A stretch of 20,162 nt of DNA, taken from the IMG/VR virus record IMGVR_UViG_3300029319_000682, positions 1 to 20,162 of that record. The stretch is one strand, 5' to 3'. Positions within the stretch are counted from its first letter, which is position 1, and each line of letters starts with the position of its first letter. The notes below the pieces were generated by a model, which did no database searches, had not been told where the DNA came from, and saw only the letters and a list, made by a program, of their open reading frames with translations. This stretch comes from a virus. Shown one piece after another: positions 4,997 to 20,000 of the stretch. A program made the translations under genes and the position numbers.

Positions 4997-7234
4997 ATGC
5001 CAACATATGGTAAAGACAATTTTAAAGAATCAAATGTAAATTATTTAAATAAAGATTTTACAGCATTAAAAACATCTTTGATGAATTATGCTAAATCTTA
5101 TTTTCCAGATACCTATCGTGATTTCAATGAAACATCACCTGGTATGATGTTATTAGAAATGAATGCATATGTTGGTGATGTATTATCATTTTATATCGAC
5201 CAACAATATCGTGAGATGTTGTTACCCTTAGCAGAGGAGAGAAGAAACATAATCACAATGGCTAAGATGTTTGGTTATAAAGTTAAACCAATTGTACCAT
5301 CGTATATTGACTTAACTTTTACATCTGAAGTAAATGCTTCTAGTGGTGATGTGTCAAAAGTAGATTACTCTAACGCTGGTACGTTTGATGCTGGCATTGA
5401 AATAACTTCAGATACAAATTCTGATATAATATTTACAACACTCGAACCTATTGATTTTAGAGTATCTGCATCTAATGATACTGAAACCATTGGAACGACA
5501 GCTGATAGTGGTTTAGCCTCAACTTATACATTAACAAGAACTGTTAAAGCTATAAGTGCAACAGAAAAAACAATTTCATTTACCATTGGTAATCCTGAAA
5601 AATTTAAAACACTAACCATACCTGATACAAATGTTATTGACATTGTTTCTTGTGTGGATACAAATGGTAGTAATTGGTATGAGGTTGATTTTTTAGCACA
5701 AGATAAAGTTCCAATTGAAACACACTATACCGATGATGTGAATAGAGATTCAGCATACTCAACTGAAACTGGTGAAATAGGAGCTTCATTGGCTGTTCCT
5801 TATTCATTAACTTATATCACAACGACAAAAAGATTTACTCGTGAAACAAACCAAGATAACACAACTTCACTTGTTTTTGGTAATGGAGTGTTGAAAGATG
5901 GACAACTTGTAGACTCAGGATTTATTGATATGGAACAAGTTGGAATTGTAATACCTGGTCAAACAAACGATTTAAATGATTCAATTGACCCATTGTTAGG
6001 TAATGAATATTCAACACTTGGTGAAACACCAAACAATACAACTTTAACAATTACTTATCGTGTTGGTGGAGGAATTAATTCTAATGTTCCAGCCGAAGAT
6101 ATAACGTCCACACCAACAATAACAGCACAAAGTGGAAACACAAGTGCTACATTGACAAGTGTAACAAATAACACAGCAGCTCATGGTGGTAAAGATGAAG
6201 AAGATACAATTGAAATAAAAGAAAGAGCTAAAGCATTTTTCACAACACAAAACAGATGTGTGACAAAAGAAGACTATGAAGCTAGAGTATTAAACATACC
6301 AAGTAAGTTTGGTAACATAGCAAAAGCATATGTAACAAGAGAAGCCCCTACAATTGAAGGTGATACTAATTTAACACAAGTTAGTAATTACATTCAGTCA
6401 GTTTCAGACTTCGTAACTGGTCCTGGTGGTGTTATAGCTTATTTGAATAGTAATCTCAATGCATTTTCAAAAGAACAAGTTATTGCAGGTACATTAAATA
6501 TATTAAATAATATACCAACAGAAATACCTGATACAAGTAATTTAGCTAGAGAATTAGAATTAGGAACAGTAAACATTTATTTATTAGGTTATAATAACCA
6601 AAAACAATTAGTTGGAAATCCACATACAAGAACAACAGACCCTGATGGTGTAATAAATGATAAATTATCAGATACTTTATTATCAAATATAAAAAAATAT
6701 TTAGAAAACTTTAAATTAATGACTGATACTATTACATTAAATGATGGATACATTGTAAACTTTGGTGTGATGTTTGATGTCATAGCTGAAAAATATGCTA
6801 ACAAACAACAAGTTAAATTAAATTGTATTGAAAAAATTAAAGAATATTTTAGAATTGAAAAAATGCAATTCAATCAACCAATTTATAAAAGTCAATTAGA
6901 ATATGAATTAATGGGTGTTGAGGGTGTTCGTTCAATTGGACATGTTACCATAACCCAAGATAGAGATTATTTTTATGATGATGGTGAATCACTAACCTCA
7001 CCTACTTATACTTATTCACATACAAATGATACTGGGGTTGATTTAGATGGTGATGGTGTTAATGACCCTGGATATATCGTAGCTGATGGTGGAACGAGTG
7101 GTTATGGATATAAGTACAATTTTCAAATAGCATTATCAGATGATGGTACAATTATAGTTCCACCATTAGTGTCAACACCAACGGTTTTTGAATTAAAAAA
7201 TCCAAATCAAAACATACAAGGGAGAGTTAGATAA
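4997..7234 (+). CDS. gp6: gp6-like (baseplate J family) wedge protein
   Basis: This protein has 745 residues (T4 gp6 has 660). The N-terminus follows the gp6 pattern: VNYLNKDFTALKTSLMNYAK (14-33), TSPGMMLLEMNAYVGDVLSFYIDQ (46-69) and a MAKMFGYKV helix end (88-96). The core baseplate-J signature is at 396-428, with HGGKDEEDTIEIKERA, FFTTQNRCVTKEDYE. The C-terminal wedge domain is at about 588-655 (NFGVMFDVIAEKYANKQQV to GVEGVRSIGHVTI). gp6 dimers form the inner baseplate ring and transmit the contraction signal. The last about 85 residues are an addition: an acidic stretch with a calcium-loop-like DLDGDGVND (682-690) followed by a Gly/Tyr-rich part. An AATTGGAGAT ribosome site precedes the start, and the stop overlaps the next start by one base. 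Confidence 0.9.
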   Translation: MPTYGKDNFKESNVNYLNKDFTALKTSLMNYAKSYFPDTYRDFNETSPGMMLLEMNAYVGDVLSFYIDQQYREMLLPLAEERRNIITMAKMFGYKVKPIVPSYIDLTFTSEVNASSGDVSKVDYSNAGTFDAGIEITSDTNSDIIFTTLEPIDFRVSASNDTETIGTTADSGLASTYTLTRTVKAISATEKTISFTIGNPEKFKTLTIPDTNVIDIVSCVDTNGSNWYEVDFLAQDKVPIETHYTDDVNRDSAYSTETGEIGASLAVPYSLTYITTTKRFTRETNQDNTTSLVFGNGVLKDGQLVDSGFIDMEQVGIVIPGQTNDLNDSIDPLLGNEYSTLGETPNNTTLTITYRVGGGINSNVPAEDITSTPTITAQSGNTSATLTSVTNNTAAHGGKDEEDTIEIKERAKAFFTTQNRCVTKEDYEARVLNIPSKFGNIAKAYVTREAPTIEGDTNLTQVSNYIQSVSDFVTGPGGVIAYLNSNLNAFSKEQVIAGTLNILNNIPTEIPDTSNLARELELGTVNIYLLGYNNQKQLVGNPHTRTTDPDGVINDKLSDTLLSNIKKYLENFKLMTDTITLNDGYIVNFGVMFDVIAEKYANKQQVKLNCIEKIKEYFRIEKMQFNQPIYKSQLEYELMGVEGVRSIGHVTITQDRDYFYDDGESLTSPTYTYSHTNDTGVDLDGDGVNDPGYIVADGGTSGYGYKYNFQIALSDDGTIIVPPLVSTPTVFELKNPNQNIQGRVR

Positions 7235-8364
7235 TGCATCATTTTATTTTTCCAAATCAAGACACTTGGGTTTCAAGTGGTTCGTCAAATGTAACAGGTG
7301 AATCTTTCAAAGACCAAAACTTTGGACGAGACCAAATACTTGAAGTCAAAAAAGAATTTTATAATAATGCTTTTGATTATCCTACGAGAGCATTAGTTCA
7401 ATTTAGTGGAGATGAATTTACTGAATTGTCTAAATCATTATCGGATGGTACAATACCACTTCCTCAAACTGGTTCTACTGTAGGTTCTAAATTTTATTTA
7501 AGATTGTTTGAAGCTGAAGGTAATGCAGAAATGACTGAAGAATATAAGTTAGCTATTCGACCAATATCACAATCTTGGACAGAGGGAATAGGTAAGTTTG
7601 GTGATAATCCAAAAGTTACTAATGGTTGTAGTTGGGAAAATCGTAGTAATCCAATTGGTGGCACGGCTATTACTTGGGCTAATGCTGGTGTTACGGTTTT
7701 AACTGTAAGTAAATCAGAACAATCATTTTCTAATCAATCTCCTGACGTAAATGTAGAAGTGACTGATATGGTAAATATGTGGTATGAAGGACAAGAAGAA
7801 AATTATGGAATGTTAATAAACTTTAGTGGTAGTCAAGAAACCGATAGTGAAACATTTGGCCATTTAAAATTTTTCTCAAGAAACACACATACAATTTTTT
7901 CCCCAAAATTAGAAGTTCGTTGGGATGATTCATCATTTTCTACTGGTTCATTAAATGAATTAACAATGAGTGGATTAACTGATAACTTTTTGTATATGAA
8001 AGGATTAAGAGAAAGTTATAAAGTTGGTGAACGAGTTAAGTTTAGAGTTGGTGCAAGAAAAAGATATATTCAAAAAACTTTTTCTAACTCAGTTCAAACT
8101 GTAACTAATTCATTTATAACTAATGGTAGTGGTTCATATGCAATCAAAGATGTTGCAACTGATGAATTTATTGTTCCATTTGAAGACTCAACAGGAACAA
8201 GTTATACAAAACTTAGTTGTGATAGTAATTCAAATTATTTTATTCAATACTTAGATGGATTTTATCCTGATAGAGTTTATAAAATTTTATTAAAATTAAA
8301 ATACGATGATGGACAAGAACAAGTGTTTGATGATGATTTTGAATTTATAGTTAAAAGGAAGTAG
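7234..8364 (+). CDS. DNRLRE-domain baseplate/tail protein
   Basis: This protein has 376 residues. Residues about 5-231 follow the DNRLRE (CBM96-like) pattern in order: FPNQDTWV (6-13) with the following asparagine-rich loop, ALVQF (53-57), FYLRLFEAEG (87-96), the WTEG motif (115-118), CSWENR (132-137), VTDMVNMWYEG (176-186), YGMLINF (191-197), and FFSRNTHTIFSPKLEVRWDD (213-232). In bacteria this beta-sandwich domain is found in secreted polysaccharide-binding proteins. The remaining about 145 residues look like an Ig-like beta domain, starting at the YKVGERVKFRV strand (262-271) and ending in DDFEFIVKRK. Its place directly after gp6, with a TAATG overlap, suggests an outer baseplate component taking the position held in T4 by peripheral wedge proteins; the exact equivalence is inference. 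No catalytic residues are recognised. Confidence 0.7.
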   Translation: MHHFIFPNQDTWVSSGSSNVTGESFKDQNFGRDQILEVKKEFYNNAFDYPTRALVQFSGDEFTELSKSLSDGTIPLPQTGSTVGSKFYLRLFEAEGNAEMTEEYKLAIRPISQSWTEGIGKFGDNPKVTNGCSWENRSNPIGGTAITWANAGVTVLTVSKSEQSFSNQSPDVNVEVTDMVNMWYEGQEENYGMLINFSGSQETDSETFGHLKFFSRNTHTIFSPKLEVRWDDSSFSTGSLNELTMSGLTDNFLYMKGLRESYKVGERVKFRVGARKRYIQKTFSNSVQTVTNSFITNGSGSYAIKDVATDEFIVPFEDSTGTSYTKLSCDSNSNYFIQYLDGFYPDRVYKILLKLKYDDGQEQVFDDDFEFIVKRK

Positions 8365-10110: not shown

Positions 10111-13100
10111 ATGGCTCTCTTAGGAAAAACTGTAATAAAACCATTTGATGGAACTGATTCTGAAGACGGAAATGGATTTGGATTTCGTCAGAATACTGAT
10201 TCTAACGAAGTTCTAAATACCAGTTTTCTTTATGGTCCAAAAGAGAATGCTCGTGATTTTCCAGTTTCTGACCCAATATCAACTCTAATAGATACTAGTA
10301 CCAGTAGAAGAAATTCTTCAAATAATTCCATAGGACATTATATCAATATACAGGATGAATGGATACAAATAATTGGTGTACAATCTAAAAAATTTCCTGA
10401 CACCTGGTTTGGTTTTTACCATAGTGAATTTCTAATAGAACGAGACATTTTTAATACTTTAGATTTATCAACATATGAAGGTTATGCAGAAGGAACTGAA
10501 GTAAGATTTTATACTGAACTTCCTGAAGATGTTAAAGAATTTTATGGTATTGGTGCATCTGCAGAAGATGAATCTCTTGAAACTTATTCCTTTGAAATAG
10601 AGCAAACATCAAATAATTTTGGTGTAGATGGTTATCAAATAGAACAAACAATTTTAAATCCATTTAATCCATTTAAAGGTATGGATATAGATATTAATGA
10701 ATTTCAAAATACAAATCAAGGCCTTGAAAATTCTAATAATGATGGTAGAATTGAACTAGGTATGTTTTCATTTGATGATGATAATTTGGCCTCTGACAAT
10801 TTTCCGAATATTTTAGCACCACCATTTATAGGGATTAATAAAAGAAATTTAGTAAACAATGGTGATTGTAAATTTGTAAAAGAAGCTTTGGAAGTAGATG
10901 ATGATGGAATATCAGTAATTGTAGAACCTGAAGGTGATTGGAGATTTTTATCTTTAAAAAGAACTCCTCCTGATAGTCAATTTAGTGATGAACAAATACC
11001 CTGGAGCACTTGGTATACGGATGGTGATGCACAAGGATTTATAGCTTATGGTGGTAAACTTACATATGTCCCTTTATCAAAGAATCAAATTACAACTGAA
11101 ACTTCATATTGGGGAAATATAACAAATGGTGGTATTAATCCAGCTAATAAAATATCTAATTTATTTTCACCAGGTGGTAATCAATCTACCATTAATGGAG
11201 ATTTAAATGCAGGTACTATTCAAACTTATTGGAGAGATACTTATAGAATTCAATCCCAAACATTTCAAAATCAAGAAGTACCACATATTGCAGCTTGGAT
11301 AGTATCAGATGAAGCTTTTTCTAATTCTAAATGTTTATGTTTTATGAATTTTCAAATTTGGGATAGAGCAAAACTTTATGGTTATTTAAATCCAGATGAG
11401 GATGAAGGATATGTTTTTAATTATTTATTACCTGACCTTCGTCATAATGAAGGTATAGTTACGGAAAATATTGATGATTCAGAATTTTTACCTGACCATA
11501 TAGATAATCAATACAGAGTATTAAATCAAGTTCAAAAAATCTATGATAAATTCAATGATGAACCATTGAATCCATATAGTTCATTAAAGATAAGATTTAA
11601 AATGAAAACCACACATGTGTTACCACCTGCTAATTCATTTGATGATGGTGAAGACGCTATGGACTTTCAAGATAATCCATTAAATAATTATGCACCAAAA
11701 GTTGAAATTGGTATTTTACAATCTCAATTTGAAGAAACACCAAAAACAGGTTTAAAAGGTTTACCTCCTTTAGGGTGGAATGAATATTTTAAAGCACCTG
11801 GAAGTTGGAACTCCGAAAGATATTTTAATGCAAACACTTACGAAGAAAAACGCTTTTCAGAAATAGGTGGTATGTCAAGATTTCAAAATTCTATAATGGA
11901 TGAATGGGAGACATTTGAATTTACATACAATTTATCAAATGAACATAATAATAGAGGAGAAATATATGGAGTTCCATATGGTGGTGCGTTTGATGATGAA
12001 TTTAATAGTGGTTCAGTTGAAATAATGTTAAATCATAATGCTGATGGTGGACTTCCAAACCCAAATTCAGGTGAAATATATTTTAAAGTTCCAGGTTATC
12101 AAGATGATGACACCGCATTAACTGATTCTGAAGGTAACCCTATTTTTTACATGCTTTCACCACACCAAGTTGATGAGAATCAAAACCCAATACGAGTTTC
12201 TGTTCAACATGGGCCAAGAAATACTAATGATTATATGGTGGTAGCTAGTGACTTAGGTGACTCCGATGGTGGTGGTGGTAATTTGAAAACTGGACTTCTA
12301 GATGATGGAACATTTCTTGAAGCTTATTTAATGTATGTTGGTGGTAATTCGTTTGGTAACCAATTACCAATGAATGATGGTATAGACTATATAGCTTTTC
12401 CTGATATAGTTGTTGCGTATTGGGATGGTGAACGATGGAGTTATGATAATAATCAAGGATATAGTACAAGTAGAACATTTACACCAGATGATATGTGTTT
12501 CATCATAGCTAGATTATATCGTAGTCCTATTGAAGAATCAGATGGGATTAGTGGAATGGACCAATACATTAGTAATGAATCTCAATATTCAACTGGTGGT
12601 TTAGGTAATTTGTCTTTATTTATACAATCAGGAAATAATTTTCAAGGTAGAGTATTGATAGATGATATTGAGTGTTTTGAATCTTATGAGTTTATACCTG
12701 ATGTAGATGTTAGAAAAAAATTATCAGTTGGTAATTATGCAAATGCAGAACTAACGAATTATTATGATAAAAAATTATCACCAGAAGAGTATAAAAACAC
12801 TCAAGCTCCATTAGAAGCTCAATTTTATTTTTATCCACAATATCCAACTGAAGAAACATTTGTAGAAAGATTACCTATTTATAATGACTTTAAAAAAGGT
12901 AAATTTTATGTTTATGATATTAATTGGGGTGATGGTTCACCAAATGAATTTACATCTGAACCTGAACAAATAGGTGAAAGTGTGGCATTATATCACACAT
13001 ATGAAACAAGCGGTATATTCGAAGTTACAGGAACAATGATAAGAGTAAAACTTGATAAAGATGATGAAATAGTTGGTATTGCTCATAATAAAAAATTTAA

Positions 13101-14463
13101 ATTAAGAATTAATGTAAATCCTGGATTAGATGAAGATTTTAAATATTTTGGAAGTGATGGTTTTTCATTTATTCCATTTGAAGAAACTGTACCAATCATA
13201 GGTGGAATATCAGAACAGAGTAATTATTATAAAACATTAAAAAGACAACTTGGATTTTTAGATAATGAAAAAATTAACATAGAGTTTAAAAATAAAAGTG
13301 ATAAACTAAAAACAGAAATAGCTCTTGTAAAAATGGAAAATCAAGTTGATGGGGATTTAGAAGTGTTGCCAGATTATATGATACAAAGAGAAGATGAAAA
13401 TGGAGATTTTATATATAATGGAATTTCAACAATTAGAGAAGAATTAGGAAAAGGAATTGGTGATTGTGATTTATCAACTATAAAGTATTACAATGAACCA
13501 AAATCAATTTGGGAATTGTTTGGATTTGAGGAAGAAGATTTAGAACAAGTTGGAAATCCAGATGAACCAAGATATTGGAAAAACATCATACCTAAACACT
13601 ATGATATATCAACTAGAAATGGATTAACAAATGAATTAACAGTTCGTATTGGTGGTAGACAAGATGGTGAAAACGGAACACCTCCACATTATAATATTAT
13701 TATAAATGGAGTAAAATATTATGATGGATTTGTTGAAGATTCTGTCACAGATGGTGCACCAAGTGGTGGGCAATATGATTCTATTGATTTCAATATTCCA
13801 ATCGATAGAAGTTTAGACATTCAAGAAATAAGAATTAATTATGATAATAATGGAACACCATCTATTATTGAAGGTGATAGAAATCTATATGTTAGTTATA
13901 TACGAATAAATGGTGTAACTTTTGATGGAAGAACAACAGCTGATGTAAGTACTCATAATGATATTAATGTGTATTATGATAGTGTAGGTTGGTACAATTG
14001 GATAGAAAATAATCCAAACCAAACATCTTATAATGAAAATGGTATAAATGCGGGTGGAAGTATGGCTTGGAATGGTGATATGGTTTTTGAAATTCCAACA
14101 AAATATTTTAAAACCACTATAGATTTTTCATCAGAACAAGAATGGATTAATGATTATTACTATCCTGTATTACCAAAGTTTAGAGCGGATGGTACATTTT
14201 CAAATACAGAGATTACAAATCAAAACATTAAATTTCCAATACTTGGAGAGATAACTAACGAAAGTGAAAAAAATGAAAATTTATTAATTAATTTAGTTAA
14301 TGAAAAAATAGAAGTTGATGTTATAAATGATAATAGTGGAAATAAAAGTTATGGATTTTTTATTCAAGATTTTAAACCAGAATTTGATGAAAAAACATTA
14401 AGAGTTAAGAAAAACAAAAAAAGAAGTAAAGTTAATAGTTCTAAAGTTAATGGGGCGTTTTAA
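10111..14463 (+). CDS. Giant modular tail/baseplate adhesin with CBM4/9-like, PKD and CBM36/60-like domains
   Basis: This protein has 1450 residues, all apparently beta-rich. Residues 1-240 have no known match. At 246-252 RNLVNNGD resembles the start of CBM4/9-type jelly rolls, and the matching end, LSLFIQSG to VLIDDIECFE (about 835-857), comes 600 residues later, suggesting a jelly roll with large insertions. A PKD domain follows (about 895-1000), with INWGDGSP (937-944) and YHTYETSGIFEVTGT (961-975). Next come PIIGGISE (1028-1035), a Lys-rich helical region, and GKGIGDCDL (1114-1121) through NEPKSIWELFGF. Residues about 1173-1320 look like a calcium-dependent CBM36/60-type domain, with GDRNLYVSYIRING (1255-1268). 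The C-terminus carries SGN, then GFFIQDFK, a basic stretch and a terminal NGAF. The region from PKD onward has a paralogue in the next gene. It is probably a fibre-like outer tail protein; no enzyme motif is seen. Confidence 0.65.
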   Translation: MALLGKTVIKPFDGTDSEDGNGFGFRQNTDSNEVLNTSFLYGPKENARDFPVSDPISTLIDTSTSRRNSSNNSIGHYINIQDEWIQIIGVQSKKFPDTWFGFYHSEFLIERDIFNTLDLSTYEGYAEGTEVRFYTELPEDVKEFYGIGASAEDESLETYSFEIEQTSNNFGVDGYQIEQTILNPFNPFKGMDIDINEFQNTNQGLENSNNDGRIELGMFSFDDDNLASDNFPNILAPPFIGINKRNLVNNGDCKFVKEALEVDDDGISVIVEPEGDWRFLSLKRTPPDSQFSDEQIPWSTWYTDGDAQGFIAYGGKLTYVPLSKNQITTETSYWGNITNGGINPANKISNLFSPGGNQSTINGDLNAGTIQTYWRDTYRIQSQTFQNQEVPHIAAWIVSDEAFSNSKCLCFMNFQIWDRAKLYGYLNPDEDEGYVFNYLLPDLRHNEGIVTENIDDSEFLPDHIDNQYRVLNQVQKIYDKFNDEPLNPYSSLKIRFKMKTTHVLPPANSFDDGEDAMDFQDNPLNNYAPKVEIGILQSQFEETPKTGLKGLPPLGWNEYFKAPGSWNSERYFNANTYEEKRFSEIGGMSRFQNSIMDEWETFEFTYNLSNEHNNRGEIYGVPYGGAFDDEFNSGSVEIMLNHNADGGLPNPNSGEIYFKVPGYQDDDTALTDSEGNPIFYMLSPHQVDENQNPIRVSVQHGPRNTNDYMVVASDLGDSDGGGGNLKTGLLDDGTFLEAYLMYVGGNSFGNQLPMNDGIDYIAFPDIVVAYWDGERWSYDNNQGYSTSRTFTPDDMCFIIARLYRSPIEESDGISGMDQYISNESQYSTGGLGNLSLFIQSGNNFQGRVLIDDIECFESYEFIPDVDVRKKLSVGNYANAELTNYYDKKLSPEEYKNTQAPLEAQFYFYPQYPTEETFVERLPIYNDFKKGKFYVYDINWGDGSPNEFTSEPEQIGESVALYHTYETSGIFEVTGTMIRVKLDKDDEIVGIAHNKKFKLRINVNPGLDEDFKYFGSDGFSFIPFEETVPIIGGISEQSNYYKTLKRQLGFLDNEKINIEFKNKSDKLKTEIALVKMENQVDGDLEVLPDYMIQREDENGDFIYNGISTIREELGKGIGDCDLSTIKYYNEPKSIWELFGFEEEDLEQVGNPDEPRYWKNIIPKHYDISTRNGLTNELTVRIGGRQDGENGTPPHYNIIINGVKYYDGFVEDSVTDGAPSGGQYDSIDFNIPIDRSLDIQEIRINYDNNGTPSIIEGDRNLYVSYIRINGVTFDGRTTADVSTHNDINVYYDSVGWYNWIENNPNQTSYNENGINAGGSMAWNGDMVFEIPTKYFKTTIDFSSEQEWINDYYYPVLPKFRADGTFSNTEITNQNIKFPILGEITNESEKNENLLINLVNEKIEVDVINDNSGNKSYGFFIQDFKPEFDEKTLRVKKNKKRSKVNSSKVNGAF
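12901..14460 (+). repeat. Homologous C-terminal module, copy A (protein-level duplication)
   Basis: This stretch encodes a PKD domain, PIIGGISE, GKGIGDCDL, YYNEPKSIWELF, the SGN/GFFIQDFK block and a basic tail ending in NGAF. The same blocks occur in the same order at the end of the next gene. Copy A is longer because about 150 residues resembling CBM36/60 interrupt it after the IWELF block. The similarity is visible in protein, not in DNA, so the duplication is old. Confidence 0.7.
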
Positions 14464-17006
14464 TGGCTGAAAAGAAAATAGTAGTTGATAAACCTGAAAT
14501 AGGTGATATAAGTCAATATAATTTTGTAGATGGATATGCAGAAAACCCACCTATATATGAGGACTCAACTAGTTTACCAGAAAACAATGATAAATTTCAA
14601 AACAAAGACTTATTCACGAAATGTGTAGGTGATAAAGTCAATGAAGCTATTATTGAAAAAAATTTAAAGTTTGAAGGTGAATCTGAAATTAAAATAGAAA
14701 ACTTGTACATTGCAAATACAGGTGTAGGAGGCACTGTAAAAAATAATCACGTTACTGGTTGGATTTTTTCTCAAGAGGCTTATGGTGGTGACCCAACAAA
14801 TGATGGATATTCTACAATAAGAGATAAAATGAAAGATGAATGGAAATTTTATTCACAAGGATTTGGTAATAAATCTGAAGGAACAGATATTGGTAACATT
14901 ACTGAAGTGGAAGGAACTCCAATTGTATCTAATTTTAGTGTAGATTCTGCAGCAATTATATTAGGTGACATTGAAGGAAGGACATTAAACTTTAATAACT
15001 TAGACCCTCAAAATGAAACTACTCCAAGTGGTTTAAATGCTTTTGAATTAAATGGTTCAGAAACCACACCTGCCAATACATCTATATTTAATGAAGACCA
15101 ATATAATCCTATTTATATTTGTATTTATACAAAAGGTGATAAAAAAGTAGCTTGGCCTGTTAATACTGATAGTAGGAGAAAAAAATATTCAATTTTTAAA
15201 ATAAGTAGTGATGATTTATTTGAAAAAGTAGGTGATAATTATATTGGTAAAGTGTATCAAAATAATTTCACCAGTCCTACAAGAACAAGAACTGGTGATG
15301 GTGGTGGTGGAGCTACACAAGCTGCGTGGAGAGTAACATCTTTACAAATATCAATAAATACATCGGCGGGAGTATCAAATAACTTTTCTGATGTTTCAAC
15401 TTATCAAGAATTTATACCATTGGTTTTACCACAAAGTAAAATTACTGAAAATAGTTTTAATAGTATTGAATGGTTAGCCGCTACAAATCCAGCAACTCAA
15501 CTTGATAATTCACAAGAATCTGGAACTGATGGTGCATTATTTAGACATCCTGATTTCTTACCTTTTACAACATTTGGATTTAGTCAGAATAATTCTTTAG
15601 GAACATCTTATGTTGATTTACAAGATTATAACTATGATTTTACTTCTATCATAAAAGCATCAAGTCCATTAAATGTAACATTTAATTTAAGTATAAAAGA
15701 TGTTAATGGAATGAGTTTATCATCTTTAGAATATGTAACATTTACTGGTGATGATGTAAACCCATATGTTATACTACGAGATGAAACTGATGCTCAAGAA
15801 TTAATTTCAAATTATGATGAACAATTGTCTAATAATCCAGATTACAATCCTCCACCATTTATTAATGCTTATGAACATAATATACAAAGAGTTGCAGAAA
15901 TTTTAAAATCTAAAAATCCTCTATATCAAGAAATGGAGTATTATAATATTGAAGTTGCAAGTGTACCTGGTGCAATAACATATAATGAAAGTGATAATAA
16001 ATGGGTGGGTTTTAATCCAAATCCACATGGAGTAATAACTTCAATGACATTTAGTTATCAATCTACTGAAACTGAATCTGAAGAATATCAAAATGTGTAT
16101 TATTATTTTATAATTGATTGGAATGATATTGATGATAAATTTAAAACCATTGAAGATTGGTTAGATTCAAAACCAGAAAATACATTTGATTACTTGGAAA
16201 GACAAAATCAAAATTTATACAAAATTTATTCTACAAAGGATTCAAATACACCAAATAATGTTTATACATCACCTGGAATAAAAAATATAAAATTTATTAT
16301 GTTTAGTGTTTTTGATGGTGATGGAACAGAAGATTCTCCTGATTTTGAAATTGGAAGATGGAAACTTTGTACATCAAGAATTTATATTGACATCCCACCA
16401 AATCAATATCCTGATTTTGGTGATGTTGGTGGAAGTGATTACACAACACTTCCATGGCCTTTTACAACTCCAATAATTGGTGGTGTTAGTGAAGATTCAA
16501 AATATAAAAAAAGTATTCAAAACACATTAGGTGGTGGAAAAATAGGTGAGTTAGATATTATAGATGAAAGATTTTTAATTAATGATTTAGAAAATGATGA
16601 AATGGGAAAAAATATAGAAACAATGGATTTAGAACAATGTAGGTATTTTGATAAACCATATGGTATTTATAATTTACTTAATATTGATGCAGTTATAAAT
16701 AATGAACTAATACCATTTAATGATTTATATTATGATGGTGATATAAATAAATTTCCGATGGAAAGTTCAGTCGGACAGATATTTATAAGTGATAATCAGG
16801 ACTTGGATTTAAAACAAAGTTGTAAATTAGAATTAAATACAGGTGAAACACTTGACAAATCTATTTTAGATACAAGTGGTAACTCAAATAAAGGATTATT
16901 AATTGGTGACTATAAAATTAAAAAAGTTAAAAAAGGTCAATCCATGAGAAGAGACTCATTCATAAAAGTTCCTAAAAAGGCCAGTAATAGAAACGGAGCA
17001 TTATAA
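14463..17006 (+). CDS. Large tail/baseplate protein, paralogous at its C-terminus to the upstream giant protein
   Basis: This 847-residue protein starts inside the stop codon of the giant gene (TAATG). Residues 1-500 are polar, beta-rich and unrecognised, with a Gly-rich stretch encoded near 15295-15315. A degenerate PKD-like domain spans about 515-620: FIIDWNDIDD (549-558) takes the place of the WGDG motif, and a PGIKNIKFIMFSVF strand pair (604-617) ends in a DGDGTED loop (618-624). PIIGGVSEDSKYKKSI (670-685), GKNIETMDL (715-723), RYFDKPYGIYNL (727-738), then SGN, GLLIGDYK and a basic tail ending in NGAL follow, matching the blocks of the 1450-residue protein in the same order. It is probably the partner or alternative of that protein at an equivalent point in the particle. 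It lacks the CBM36/60-like insert. The stop overlaps the next start by one base. Confidence 0.65.
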   Translation: MAEKKIVVDKPEIGDISQYNFVDGYAENPPIYEDSTSLPENNDKFQNKDLFTKCVGDKVNEAIIEKNLKFEGESEIKIENLYIANTGVGGTVKNNHVTGWIFSQEAYGGDPTNDGYSTIRDKMKDEWKFYSQGFGNKSEGTDIGNITEVEGTPIVSNFSVDSAAIILGDIEGRTLNFNNLDPQNETTPSGLNAFELNGSETTPANTSIFNEDQYNPIYICIYTKGDKKVAWPVNTDSRRKKYSIFKISSDDLFEKVGDNYIGKVYQNNFTSPTRTRTGDGGGGATQAAWRVTSLQISINTSAGVSNNFSDVSTYQEFIPLVLPQSKITENSFNSIEWLAATNPATQLDNSQESGTDGALFRHPDFLPFTTFGFSQNNSLGTSYVDLQDYNYDFTSIIKASSPLNVTFNLSIKDVNGMSLSSLEYVTFTGDDVNPYVILRDETDAQELISNYDEQLSNNPDYNPPPFINAYEHNIQRVAEILKSKNPLYQEMEYYNIEVASVPGAITYNESDNKWVGFNPNPHGVITSMTFSYQSTETESEEYQNVYYYFIIDWNDIDDKFKTIEDWLDSKPENTFDYLERQNQNLYKIYSTKDSNTPNNVYTSPGIKNIKFIMFSVFDGDGTEDSPDFEIGRWKLCTSRIYIDIPPNQYPDFGDVGGSDYTTLPWPFTTPIIGGVSEDSKYKKSIQNTLGGGKIGELDIIDERFLINDLENDEMGKNIETMDLEQCRYFDKPYGIYNLLNIDAVINNELIPFNDLYYDGDINKFPMESSVGQIFISDNQDLDLKQSCKLELNTGETLDKSILDTSGNSNKGLLIGDYKIKKVKKGQSMRRDSFIKVPKKASNRNGAL
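16107..17003 (+). repeat. Homologous C-terminal module, copy B (protein-level duplication)
   Basis: This is the short version of the module: degenerate PKD, PIIGGVSE, GKNIETMDL, RYFDKPYGIYNL, SGN/GLLIGDYK and a Lys/Arg-rich tail ending in NGAL. Compared with copy A it lacks the carbohydrate-binding-like insert and part of the Lys-rich helical region. Confidence 0.7.
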
Positions 17007-20000
17007 TGCCAGATTTTGAATTTGAATTTAATCAACAAGATAAAGATTTAATTGTCAATCAATCAGCTGGAGAATTTGGTAATAACGATTATATGCGTTT
17101 AACCATTTATCCAAGTGAAACGATAAATCAAGTTGTTACCTTACAAGATAATACAAAAGGTATTGATGGTAAGGCTATATTCTTCTCTACTTTATTTGAA
17201 GGTCCTTTTTCTATCAATGTATCACCATTTACTAATGATAATAGTTTTGATACTAAAATAATTGGTAATGATAATGTAAATGATTTTAAAATTTATAAAA
17301 ATCCTAATGGTGGTATTTACATTAAACCAAATGAAATATTTAATAAATTTGAATTACCTCAAGGTGATTATAGAATACAAATTGATTTCTTAAATCAATT
17401 TTCCAAAGGACAAGTATCTCAACAATCATTACCAATACCTTATTGGTTTGAAGATTTTGATTTTAACGGTGATGGTATTGTTAATGTTGTTGATGTATCA
17501 GCATGGAATCAAGTAGGTAGAACGGATATTGGTAATTTAATTCTTGCTAATATTGCTGGAACTGCAGATGACCCACCATCGTATTATGCAGAAAGTGATA
17601 GTCAAGAGGGACAACAGGGACAACAAGGTGGTGGTCAAGAAGGTGGTACTGATTTTGAAACAAATCCTCTTAGAGGACCTGAATATTATTATTCTGAAAA
17701 TTTAAATCCGAACGCTGTTGTTCATTATAATTTTATTATAAAACAAATATCAACTTCAAGAAAAGAAGTTCGTTTAAAAATTTTTGATGAACCTATATTA
17801 AATGATTCGGATTTTATCACTAATTTAACAAATGAATTAAATCAAAATACTAATACTTATCAATTCAAACATGTATTAAACATTGGAACTGGTGACCACA
17901 ATCCAATAATGAATTATCAGTTTGATGCAGTTACAGATGGTAAAAATAATCAATCCATAATATTAAAGTTATATGAACCATTGGCAAATAATGTTAATAC
18001 CTTATCTCCTGTAACTATTGAAAAGGAAGTATTAACAACACAAATACAAGATATATATTATTTTTCAGATGTTCCTGAAGTATTTTTTGGTGATGGGTTA
18101 CAACCAGACCCACAAGAAAATTGGATAAATCCTGATGGTAATATTATTGGATTTGAAAACTATAATCAAATAGCCATATCATCATCAATTGAAAACACAA
18201 CAATAGATAGTATAATATCATCAAGTGAATATGGTTATCCAAGTTTAAACACAGATTTTAATGAATTTTCAAATCATACTTTTTTTGGTTCTGCTAAAAA
18301 GAAATTAGAAAACTTTAAAACAAAAGTTGAAACCATTCAAGGATTTTATACAAATATATCAAGTTCATTAAGTAGTAGTGGTATATCAATGACTGGTGAT
18401 AACAATGAGTTAATTCAAAGAAGAAAAAATTTATTTGAAAAAATAGAAAAAGAATTTAGAACATTTACACCATATGAAAGATTTTTATATTTTGATGGAC
18501 AAAGTAATACAACTGCATCTGCACCAAGTTTAACAAATTATGCTGATACCAAACCTGTTCGATTCGATGGTGATACTCTTGAGTTAAGTCAACATAATGG
18601 ATTCAATACCGTTTATAAATTTTCATCTGAAAAAATATCAAGTGTTCATGACCAATTTATACATTTATTTACTGATAAATACAAAGTACAAAACAAACCA
18701 TTTTTTAATTATAGTGGTTCAATTTATTTATCATTTTTATTACAAGGTGATAGTGGTAGTGCTTTATCTTGGGATACATATGGACAAACAACTGCAGGTA
18801 ACGGACTTGGTGTACCATTACCAAATGATGCATTACACCAAAATAGAATTTTAGAACCATTAATTACAGGAAGTGAATATAGACGTTTTATTTATGAAGC
18901 CTCTCAATCATATTGGATACCAAATCAAAACATAGATTTTTCTGATTTACCAACAATTGATAACAATGGTGAACTTATTGATAGTAGTAATGTAACTTTT
19001 TTACATACAAATATAAAAACAGGTTCTTATCAAATTAATGATTCTACTGGACAATATCCAACAACAGTTGTAACTCAAAGTGGAGCTCCATTTTTTGGAG
19101 CATGTATGCCAGCTGGTGAATTGTTTAGAATTTATAATAAAAACAATTTATCTGCAAGTTTATTTGCTCATTACAATTATGAAAACATTACCATTGATGA
19201 TAGAGATTTTGAAGTACTTGACGTTAGTGGTAATAATAGAACTATTTCTTGGGATGGTGGTTCAACTGATTCATTCACATCAGCCTCTGTAGAAACTGGT
19301 GTGGATGGTAAAATATCATCATCATTGAAATGGAGTGGTAGTAATGCTGGTGCTTCTGGATTATTTTATTTTAACTCTAATATTGATAATGAAGCAGGTA
19401 GAGTAACATTCACAACATCTTCAGGTGTAGACCAAGGCTTTGATGGATTTACATTTACCTCTTGGTTAAAAACTGAAGATACAAACATAACAATTATGTC
19501 CTTAGACATTAAGTCTTCAGGTAGTGGTGTGCAAGATAATGTAGCAGTAAATCATTCATCTCTTGATGATGTGGATGGTTGGTGGGTAGGAAAAAGTGGT
19601 GCAAGTATACAAGGACAAGTAACCGACCAAGGCCACAAAGTATTGAATAAATCTGATTTTAAAGTTAATCCAAGTAATGCAGATTTAACCGATAATGAAT
19701 TTCACCATTATGCTTTATCTTGGAATCAAACCACTGGTACGGGTTCTCTTTACATTGATGGTGTTAATGTTAAAACTTTAGCTGGTTATCCATTATCAGG
19801 TAGTAATGTAATATATAGAATAAGAGTTGGAAATGGACCAGGTAGTGCATTAGGATATGGTGATGGTCAATTTGATGAAACAAGATTTTATTTACGTTCA
19901 CTTAACGATAGTGAAATAAATCAATTGTTTTTACATCCTGATGGAAAAACAGAAACAAAAATTACAGATGTAAAACTAACATTAAAAGACCCAACTAATG

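Follow-up and report, generated by a model that had tools for sequence, protein, structure and literature searches.

Descriptions of phage tail fibres usually assign conservation to the N-terminus and variability to the C-terminus (Smug et al., PMC10684548), and domain-mosaic receptor-binding and tail proteins of phages have domains in common with, and exchange them among, otherwise unrelated tail proteins (Smug et al. 2023, PMC10684548). Tail operons with the order gp25, gp6, a protein of about 370 aa and a giant protein are found in Flavobacterium phage vB_FspM_immuto (Immutovirus; MW353176) and in Microcystis phage Mel-JY01 (PP395634). The window analyzed here, the 20,162 nucleotides of IMG/VR record IMGVR_UViG_3300029319_000682, is part of a T4-like tail operon from an uncultured marine virus of bacteria, in which the baseplate wedge genes gp25 and gp6 are followed by genes for a 376-aa protein, a 579-aa protein, two giant proteins hereafter named A and B, and a third giant protein. 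The A/B pair is flanked by two conserved proteins, one of 376 aa and one giant, the latter with a homologue in Immutovirus and Mel-JY01. Unlike in the window, no credible copy of the C-terminal module that A and B share was detected by HMM search in the corresponding regions of Immutovirus and Mel-JY01, and vB_FspM_immuto does not use Shine-Dalgarno sites.

Lineage and host of the A/B-bearing phages

The terminase large subunit, found in only one contig of the family, was 53-54% identical to those of Immutovirus and Mel-JY01, and gp6 of the window lineage was about 32% identical to theirs. Thirty window-type gp6 loci extend 6 kb or more downstream, and the A/B module was present in 29 of them; the remaining one is a range effect, as the locus (L201) was cut inside A and its contig does carry A and B, within locus L004. 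No locus among the 28 of the sister Immutovirus-type lineage carried the module, and an HMM search of the corresponding regions of the two named isolates gave no credible match to it. The 376-aa protein that follows gp6 (window positions 7234-8364), kept in Immutovirus and Mel-JY01, matched CBM96 above the cut-off (E 1.5e-7).

The two sister lineages share the same tail gene order and differ strongly in their use of Shine-Dalgarno sites. Shine-Dalgarno-like sites preceded 424 of 610 genes in the window-type loci (139 expected) and 67 of 712 in the Immutovirus-type loci (45 expected), the latter barely above chance. This suggests hosts that differ in translation initiation. Shine-Dalgarno sequences are naturally missing from Bacteroidetes, flavobacteria among them (PMC6847099), which makes a flavobacterial host for the window lineage unlikely. 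The gene psbA, a possible hint to the host, was absent from the 18 contigs searched.

Homology of the C-terminal modules and origin of the pair

A preliminary description of this DNA had proposed that the 1450- and 847-residue proteins carry the same ordered C-terminal blocks on unrelated N-terminal parts. Every listed motif was found, in identical order (Table 1). In A, these are the PKD-like signature (residues 935-974), PIIGGISEQSNYYK (1028-1041), GKGIGDCDL (1113-1121), KYYNEPKSIWEL (1125-1136), SGNKSYGFFIQDFK (1409-1422) and NGAF (1447-1450); in B, YYYFIIDWND (546-555), NVYTSPGIKNIKF (599-611), PIIGGVSEDSKYKK (670-683), GKNIETMDL (715-723), RYFDKPYGIYNL (727-738), SGNSNKGLLIGDYK (805-818) and NGAL (844-847). 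Profile-profile alignment by HHalign, the check suggested in that description, paired A1 with B1 (E 4.1e-20), A2 with B2 (3.6e-11) and A3 with B3 (9.1e-8); because pairwise E-values of this kind are uncalibrated, the argument lies in the contrast with the six off-diagonal pairs, all of which had a probability below 1%. Direct BLASTP of A against B gave E=3e-8 over the span from PIIGG to the DL..YY region, and the best raw score, 118, exceeded the maximum of 106 among 2000 shuffles of the C-terminus of B. In single-pass HMM searches for B-class proteins, the A1 seed matched 83 and the B1 seed 84, so that A1 reaches nearly every B. The claim of unrelated N-terminal parts also stood: the tiles covering A 1-880 and B 1-545 all failed to reach the paralogue.

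Table 1. Features of the A/B region in the window (+, strand as given).
Feature	Position	Strand	Remarks
Protein A, 1450 aa	10111..14463	+	Variable head and C-terminal module
A head, residues 1-880	10111..12750	+	
Block A1, residues 881-1050	12751..13260	+	PKD-like domain and PIIGG segment (13192-13233)
Slot A12	13261..13410	+	Empty state, 50 aa here; up to 583 aa in relatives
Block A2, residues 1101-1172	13411..13626	+	GKGIGDCDL, KYYNEPKSIWEL, YWKNIIP
Slot A23	13627..14118	+	Occupied by a CBM60-type carbohydrate-binding module (matched by Pfam at 13636-13932)
Block A3, residues 1337-1450	14119..14460	+	SGNKSYGFFIQDFK and C-terminal tail
NGAF codons and TAATG	14449..14465	+	Shine-Dalgarno site (GGGG) and overlapping start of B
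Protein B, 847 aa	14463..17006	+	Head and C-terminal module
B head, residues 1-545	14463..16097	+	
Block B1, residues 546-692	16098..16538	+	PKD-like domain and PIIGG segment (16470-16511)
Block B2, residues 695-742	16545..16688	+	GKNIETMDL, RYFDKPYGIYNL
Slot B23	16689..16730	+	14 aa in the window, empty; many relatives have 100-733 aa
Block B3, residues 757-847	16731..17003	+	SGNSNKGLLIGDYK and basic tail
NGAL codons and TAATG	16992..17008	+	Shine-Dalgarno site (GGAG) and overlapping start of third giant gene
Third giant tail gene, at least 1051 aa	17006..20162	+	Runs off the window; LamG-like domain
Mobile EF-hand/dockerin-like domain	17417..17617	+	Copy in third gene; in slots of A and B in relatives

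Parts of the preliminary description needed amendment. The module is homologous, C-terminal and placed on variable heads, and takes the form of a frame bearing insertion slots rather than one block. The PKD or PKD-like domain ascribed to both proteins keeps the weaker of these labels, which derives from the motif and, for A, from a weak match in PDB (4xed, E 0.013); no Pfam PKD model fires for A or B, and the domain of B is divergent.

A family of 177 loci, the window included, was gathered from viral contigs by protein and profile searches; it falls into 73 clusters, which were defined by shared 150-mers so that close relatives are merged. A was present in 70 and B in 63 of these clusters, and a missing partner mostly coincided in the gene tables with a cut contig or the end of a locus. 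In a tree of the shared block, 87 A and 77 B sequences were separated with none of the 164 tips misplaced, the bipartition having support values of 0.996 (A1) and 0.957 (B1). This error-free split indicates that the duplication is older than all sampled members and that both copies have been kept since; as judged from these alignments, A and B are ancient paralogues from one duplication, maintained as neighbours in an uncultured marine lineage. PKD and Ig-like domains are common in proteins, and the block motifs of B are short, so that the resemblance could in principle reflect a common domain acquired twice, with the other blocks alike by coincidence. Such an origin is highly improbable given that the second and third blocks match without any PKD domain, on the diagonal only, and that the tree shows one ancient split.

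Conservation, free-standing modules and gene ends

Conservation was mapped along both proteins with iterated 80-aa tiles. In A, tiles of 881-1040 were recognized in 66-67 of 70 clusters, those of 1121-1200 and 1281-1360 in all 70, and tile 1361-1440 in 51 A and 61 B clusters; the CBM60 tile was found in 5. In B, tiles of 561-847 reached 61-63 of 63 clusters, those of 1-400 reached 25-40, and the linker 401-480 reached one. Only the module was therefore present in nearly all A and B clusters. In classical tail fibres the N-terminus is the most conserved part; here the polarity is reversed, the conservation being C-terminal and the N-terminus of B intermediate.

Free-standing versions of the module were also found. 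The A module forms a gene of its own in L168 (384 aa) and in L034 and L035 (about 670 aa); a gene encoding roughly 1145-1218 aa lies directly before it in all three. Many distant relatives encode A2-A3 separately, in a gene of some 200-266 aa that follows the A1-containing gene, and the B protein of L155, with 432 aa, extends scarcely beyond the module. Two A proteins were very large (3903 aa in L032 and at least 4184 aa in L033), their heads having grown to about 3000 residues with the module still at the C-terminus. Parts found both fused and as neighbours would usually act together, and the near-universal presence of the module combined with its occurrence as a free-standing gene favours a structural or docking core.

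An opposite arrangement would follow the usual tail-fibre description (Smug et al., PMC10684548), the N-termini holding the particle and the C-terminal module being the receptor-binding end, conserved along with a conserved receptor. The first 320 residues of B are recognizable in 36-40 of 63 clusters, a fairly well kept head that is a counterpoint to C-terminal anchoring, and the inserted domains lie in the C-terminal half. Nevertheless, we consider this arrangement unlikely: the first 160 residues of A occur in just 3 of 70 clusters against a near-universal module, heads and module can be separate genes, and two paralogues would have had to keep the same receptor end on different heads.

The NGA[FL] ending had been listed as the close of a basic tail. 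It is present in both proteins and, at the nucleotide level, is in part a translation signal. The stop codon overlaps the next start as TAATG in 142 ends; GGA or GGG encodes the Gly of NGA[FL] in 101 of 103 ends, against 38% at other positions of these proteins, and where Gln replaces Gly it is encoded by CAG in 38 of 57, versus 10%. From this codon choice, the NGA[FL] codons carry a Shine-Dalgarno site some 7 nt ahead of the following ATG. The amino acids themselves are not forced by the signal, as TAATG-overlapping genes elsewhere have other endings (RVR, LTY); some constraint at the protein level may remain, that of a docking peptide included. As a general caution, a translation signal can lie within the codons of conserved C-terminal residues where the next start codon overlaps.

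The coupling of the two genes bears on a further alternative, namely that the module is mainly an assembly element, an A-B interlock or a trimerization or folding domain, which does not itself contact the particle. A and B stay together and are translationally coupled through these TAATG junctions, and in some phages A1 and A2-A3 are separate genes and so probably meet as proteins. AlphaFold models of the A module had a mean pLDDT of 58.9 and were good mainly in the PKD-like part (about 80-88 over most of its core) and the CBM60 part. Those of B reached 68.7, being good in the head (80-92 over much of residues 50-420) and the PKD-like domain and poor in the C-terminal 200 residues; a fold that requires partners could account for such low confidence in monomers. 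Docking is compatible with these observations too, and both roles could hold, and we regard a mainly assembly-related module as unlikely.

Searches for relatives outside the family were negative. Foldseek, for which the C-terminal models were of low confidence, returned nothing at E<=0.001 for A against PDB or for B against PDB and BFVD, and sequence-profile searches of PDB gave nothing for B and the weak PKD match for A. Queries with A, B, two distant relatives, the minimal module of each protein and the CBM60 insert matched no isolate phage by tblastn, and a search of bacterial and archaeal genome contigs gave no match. PHROG searches with all members gave single-member matches only, none of them to the window proteins and none tail-annotated, and a literature search for a described family returned general domain mosaicism only.

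Insertion slots and mobile domains

The module accepts insertions at fixed positions, which across relatives range from empty to hundreds of residues: 50-583 aa in A12, 0-759 aa at an internal position of A2 that is used in some relatives, 0-236 aa in A23, 0-733 aa in B23 and 0-94 aa inside B1 (up to 136 by seed alignment). In the window all slots of B are empty, and the module of A is interrupted in A23 by a CBM60 match (residues 1176-1274; Pfam E 2e-7, 31.7 bits against a curated cut-off of 28.2). Alignment revealed homologous inserts in L008, L010, L017 and L018; in L004 and L007 slot A23 has 4 aa, the L004 protein being otherwise close to the A protein of the window.

Inserts resemble one another across non-equivalent slots and across A and B. 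Examples are the insert inside B1 of L008 and that in A23 of L012 (62%, E 2e-37), B23 of L024 and the A2 insert of L026 (50%, E 2e-37), and B23 of L022 and the A2 insert of L030 (43%, E 2e-48); cross-slot pairs at E<1e-5 number in the hundreds, pairs that are not independent events. An EF-hand/dockerin-like domain, about 55-80 residues long and marked by the signature LPFPxYxEEFDxNxDG...RPDI, occurs in 38 clusters, in A heads, A12, A2, A23, B1, B23 and a single B head as well as in genes other than A and B, those listed being the third gene. Its best Pfam matches, EF-hand (E 3.5e-4) and Dockerin_1 (0.025), are below curated cut-offs. A and B thus resemble domain-mosaic tail proteins in carrying the same domain in otherwise differing contexts. 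Unlike the mosaics of Smug et al. 2023, their constant part is C-terminal and their variable parts are N-terminal and internal, and related inserts occupy fixed slots of two ancient paralogues and the next gene.

Among the display inserts only CBM60 passes its curated Pfam cut-off, matches to CBM4/9 lying below, so that glycan binding is predicted for one family and guessed for the rest. CBM60 (PF16841) is a Ca-dependent xylan-binding module, and its counterpart here, found unlike the usual CBM60 in a phage tail protein, may bind glycans in a Ca-dependent manner.

Two further cases were noted. Similarity of the third giant protein to its isolate homologues covers residues 212-523 or so and resumes around 1009, and its LamG-like domain (801-971) falls between the two matching stretches, as if the intervening part were also an insertion. 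Slot B23 of L023 (positions 13096-14661) has a HINT/intein-like domain (PT-HINT E 1e-8, Intein_splicing 8.5e-6) that begins with Cys and ends with HNS, a possible mini-intein or BIL-type domain.

Proposed role of the A/B pair

We give a probability of about 0.5 to the reading of A and B as a structural frame on which exchangeable surface-binding domains are displayed, with the module anchoring the proteins and inserts being swapped. A and B would be paralogous tail or baseplate proteins, adjacent and translationally coupled, with the C-terminal module (PKD-like domain and PIIGG, DL..[KR]Y[YF]..P, SGN..DYK) as their invariant structural core; this core would most likely hold A and B on the particle, to each other, or both. 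The N-terminal heads and the domains at fixed slots of the core (CBM60, CBM4/9-like, EF-hand/dockerin-like and others) would be the exchangeable parts, making the pair a display scaffold whose surface-binding domains probably recognize glycans of the host or its surroundings, and which could be retuned by moving inserts between slots and between genes.

These results provide boundaries and HMM-ready blocks for a tail protein family that is present in at least 73 viral contig clusters and for which searches of Pfam, PHROGs, PDB and isolate phages found no relative. The fixed slots make domain exchange directly measurable, from the slots that each domain occupies and the frequency of its moves to any association with host or habitat. 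Insert exchange is possibly a way to alter what the virus sticks to. More tentatively, phages of this uncultured marine lineage may use a two-protein display frame, with a duplicated core, standard insertion sites and a pool of surface-binding domains moving across three adjacent tail genes, which would allow several binding specificities to be carried and re-assorted at once.
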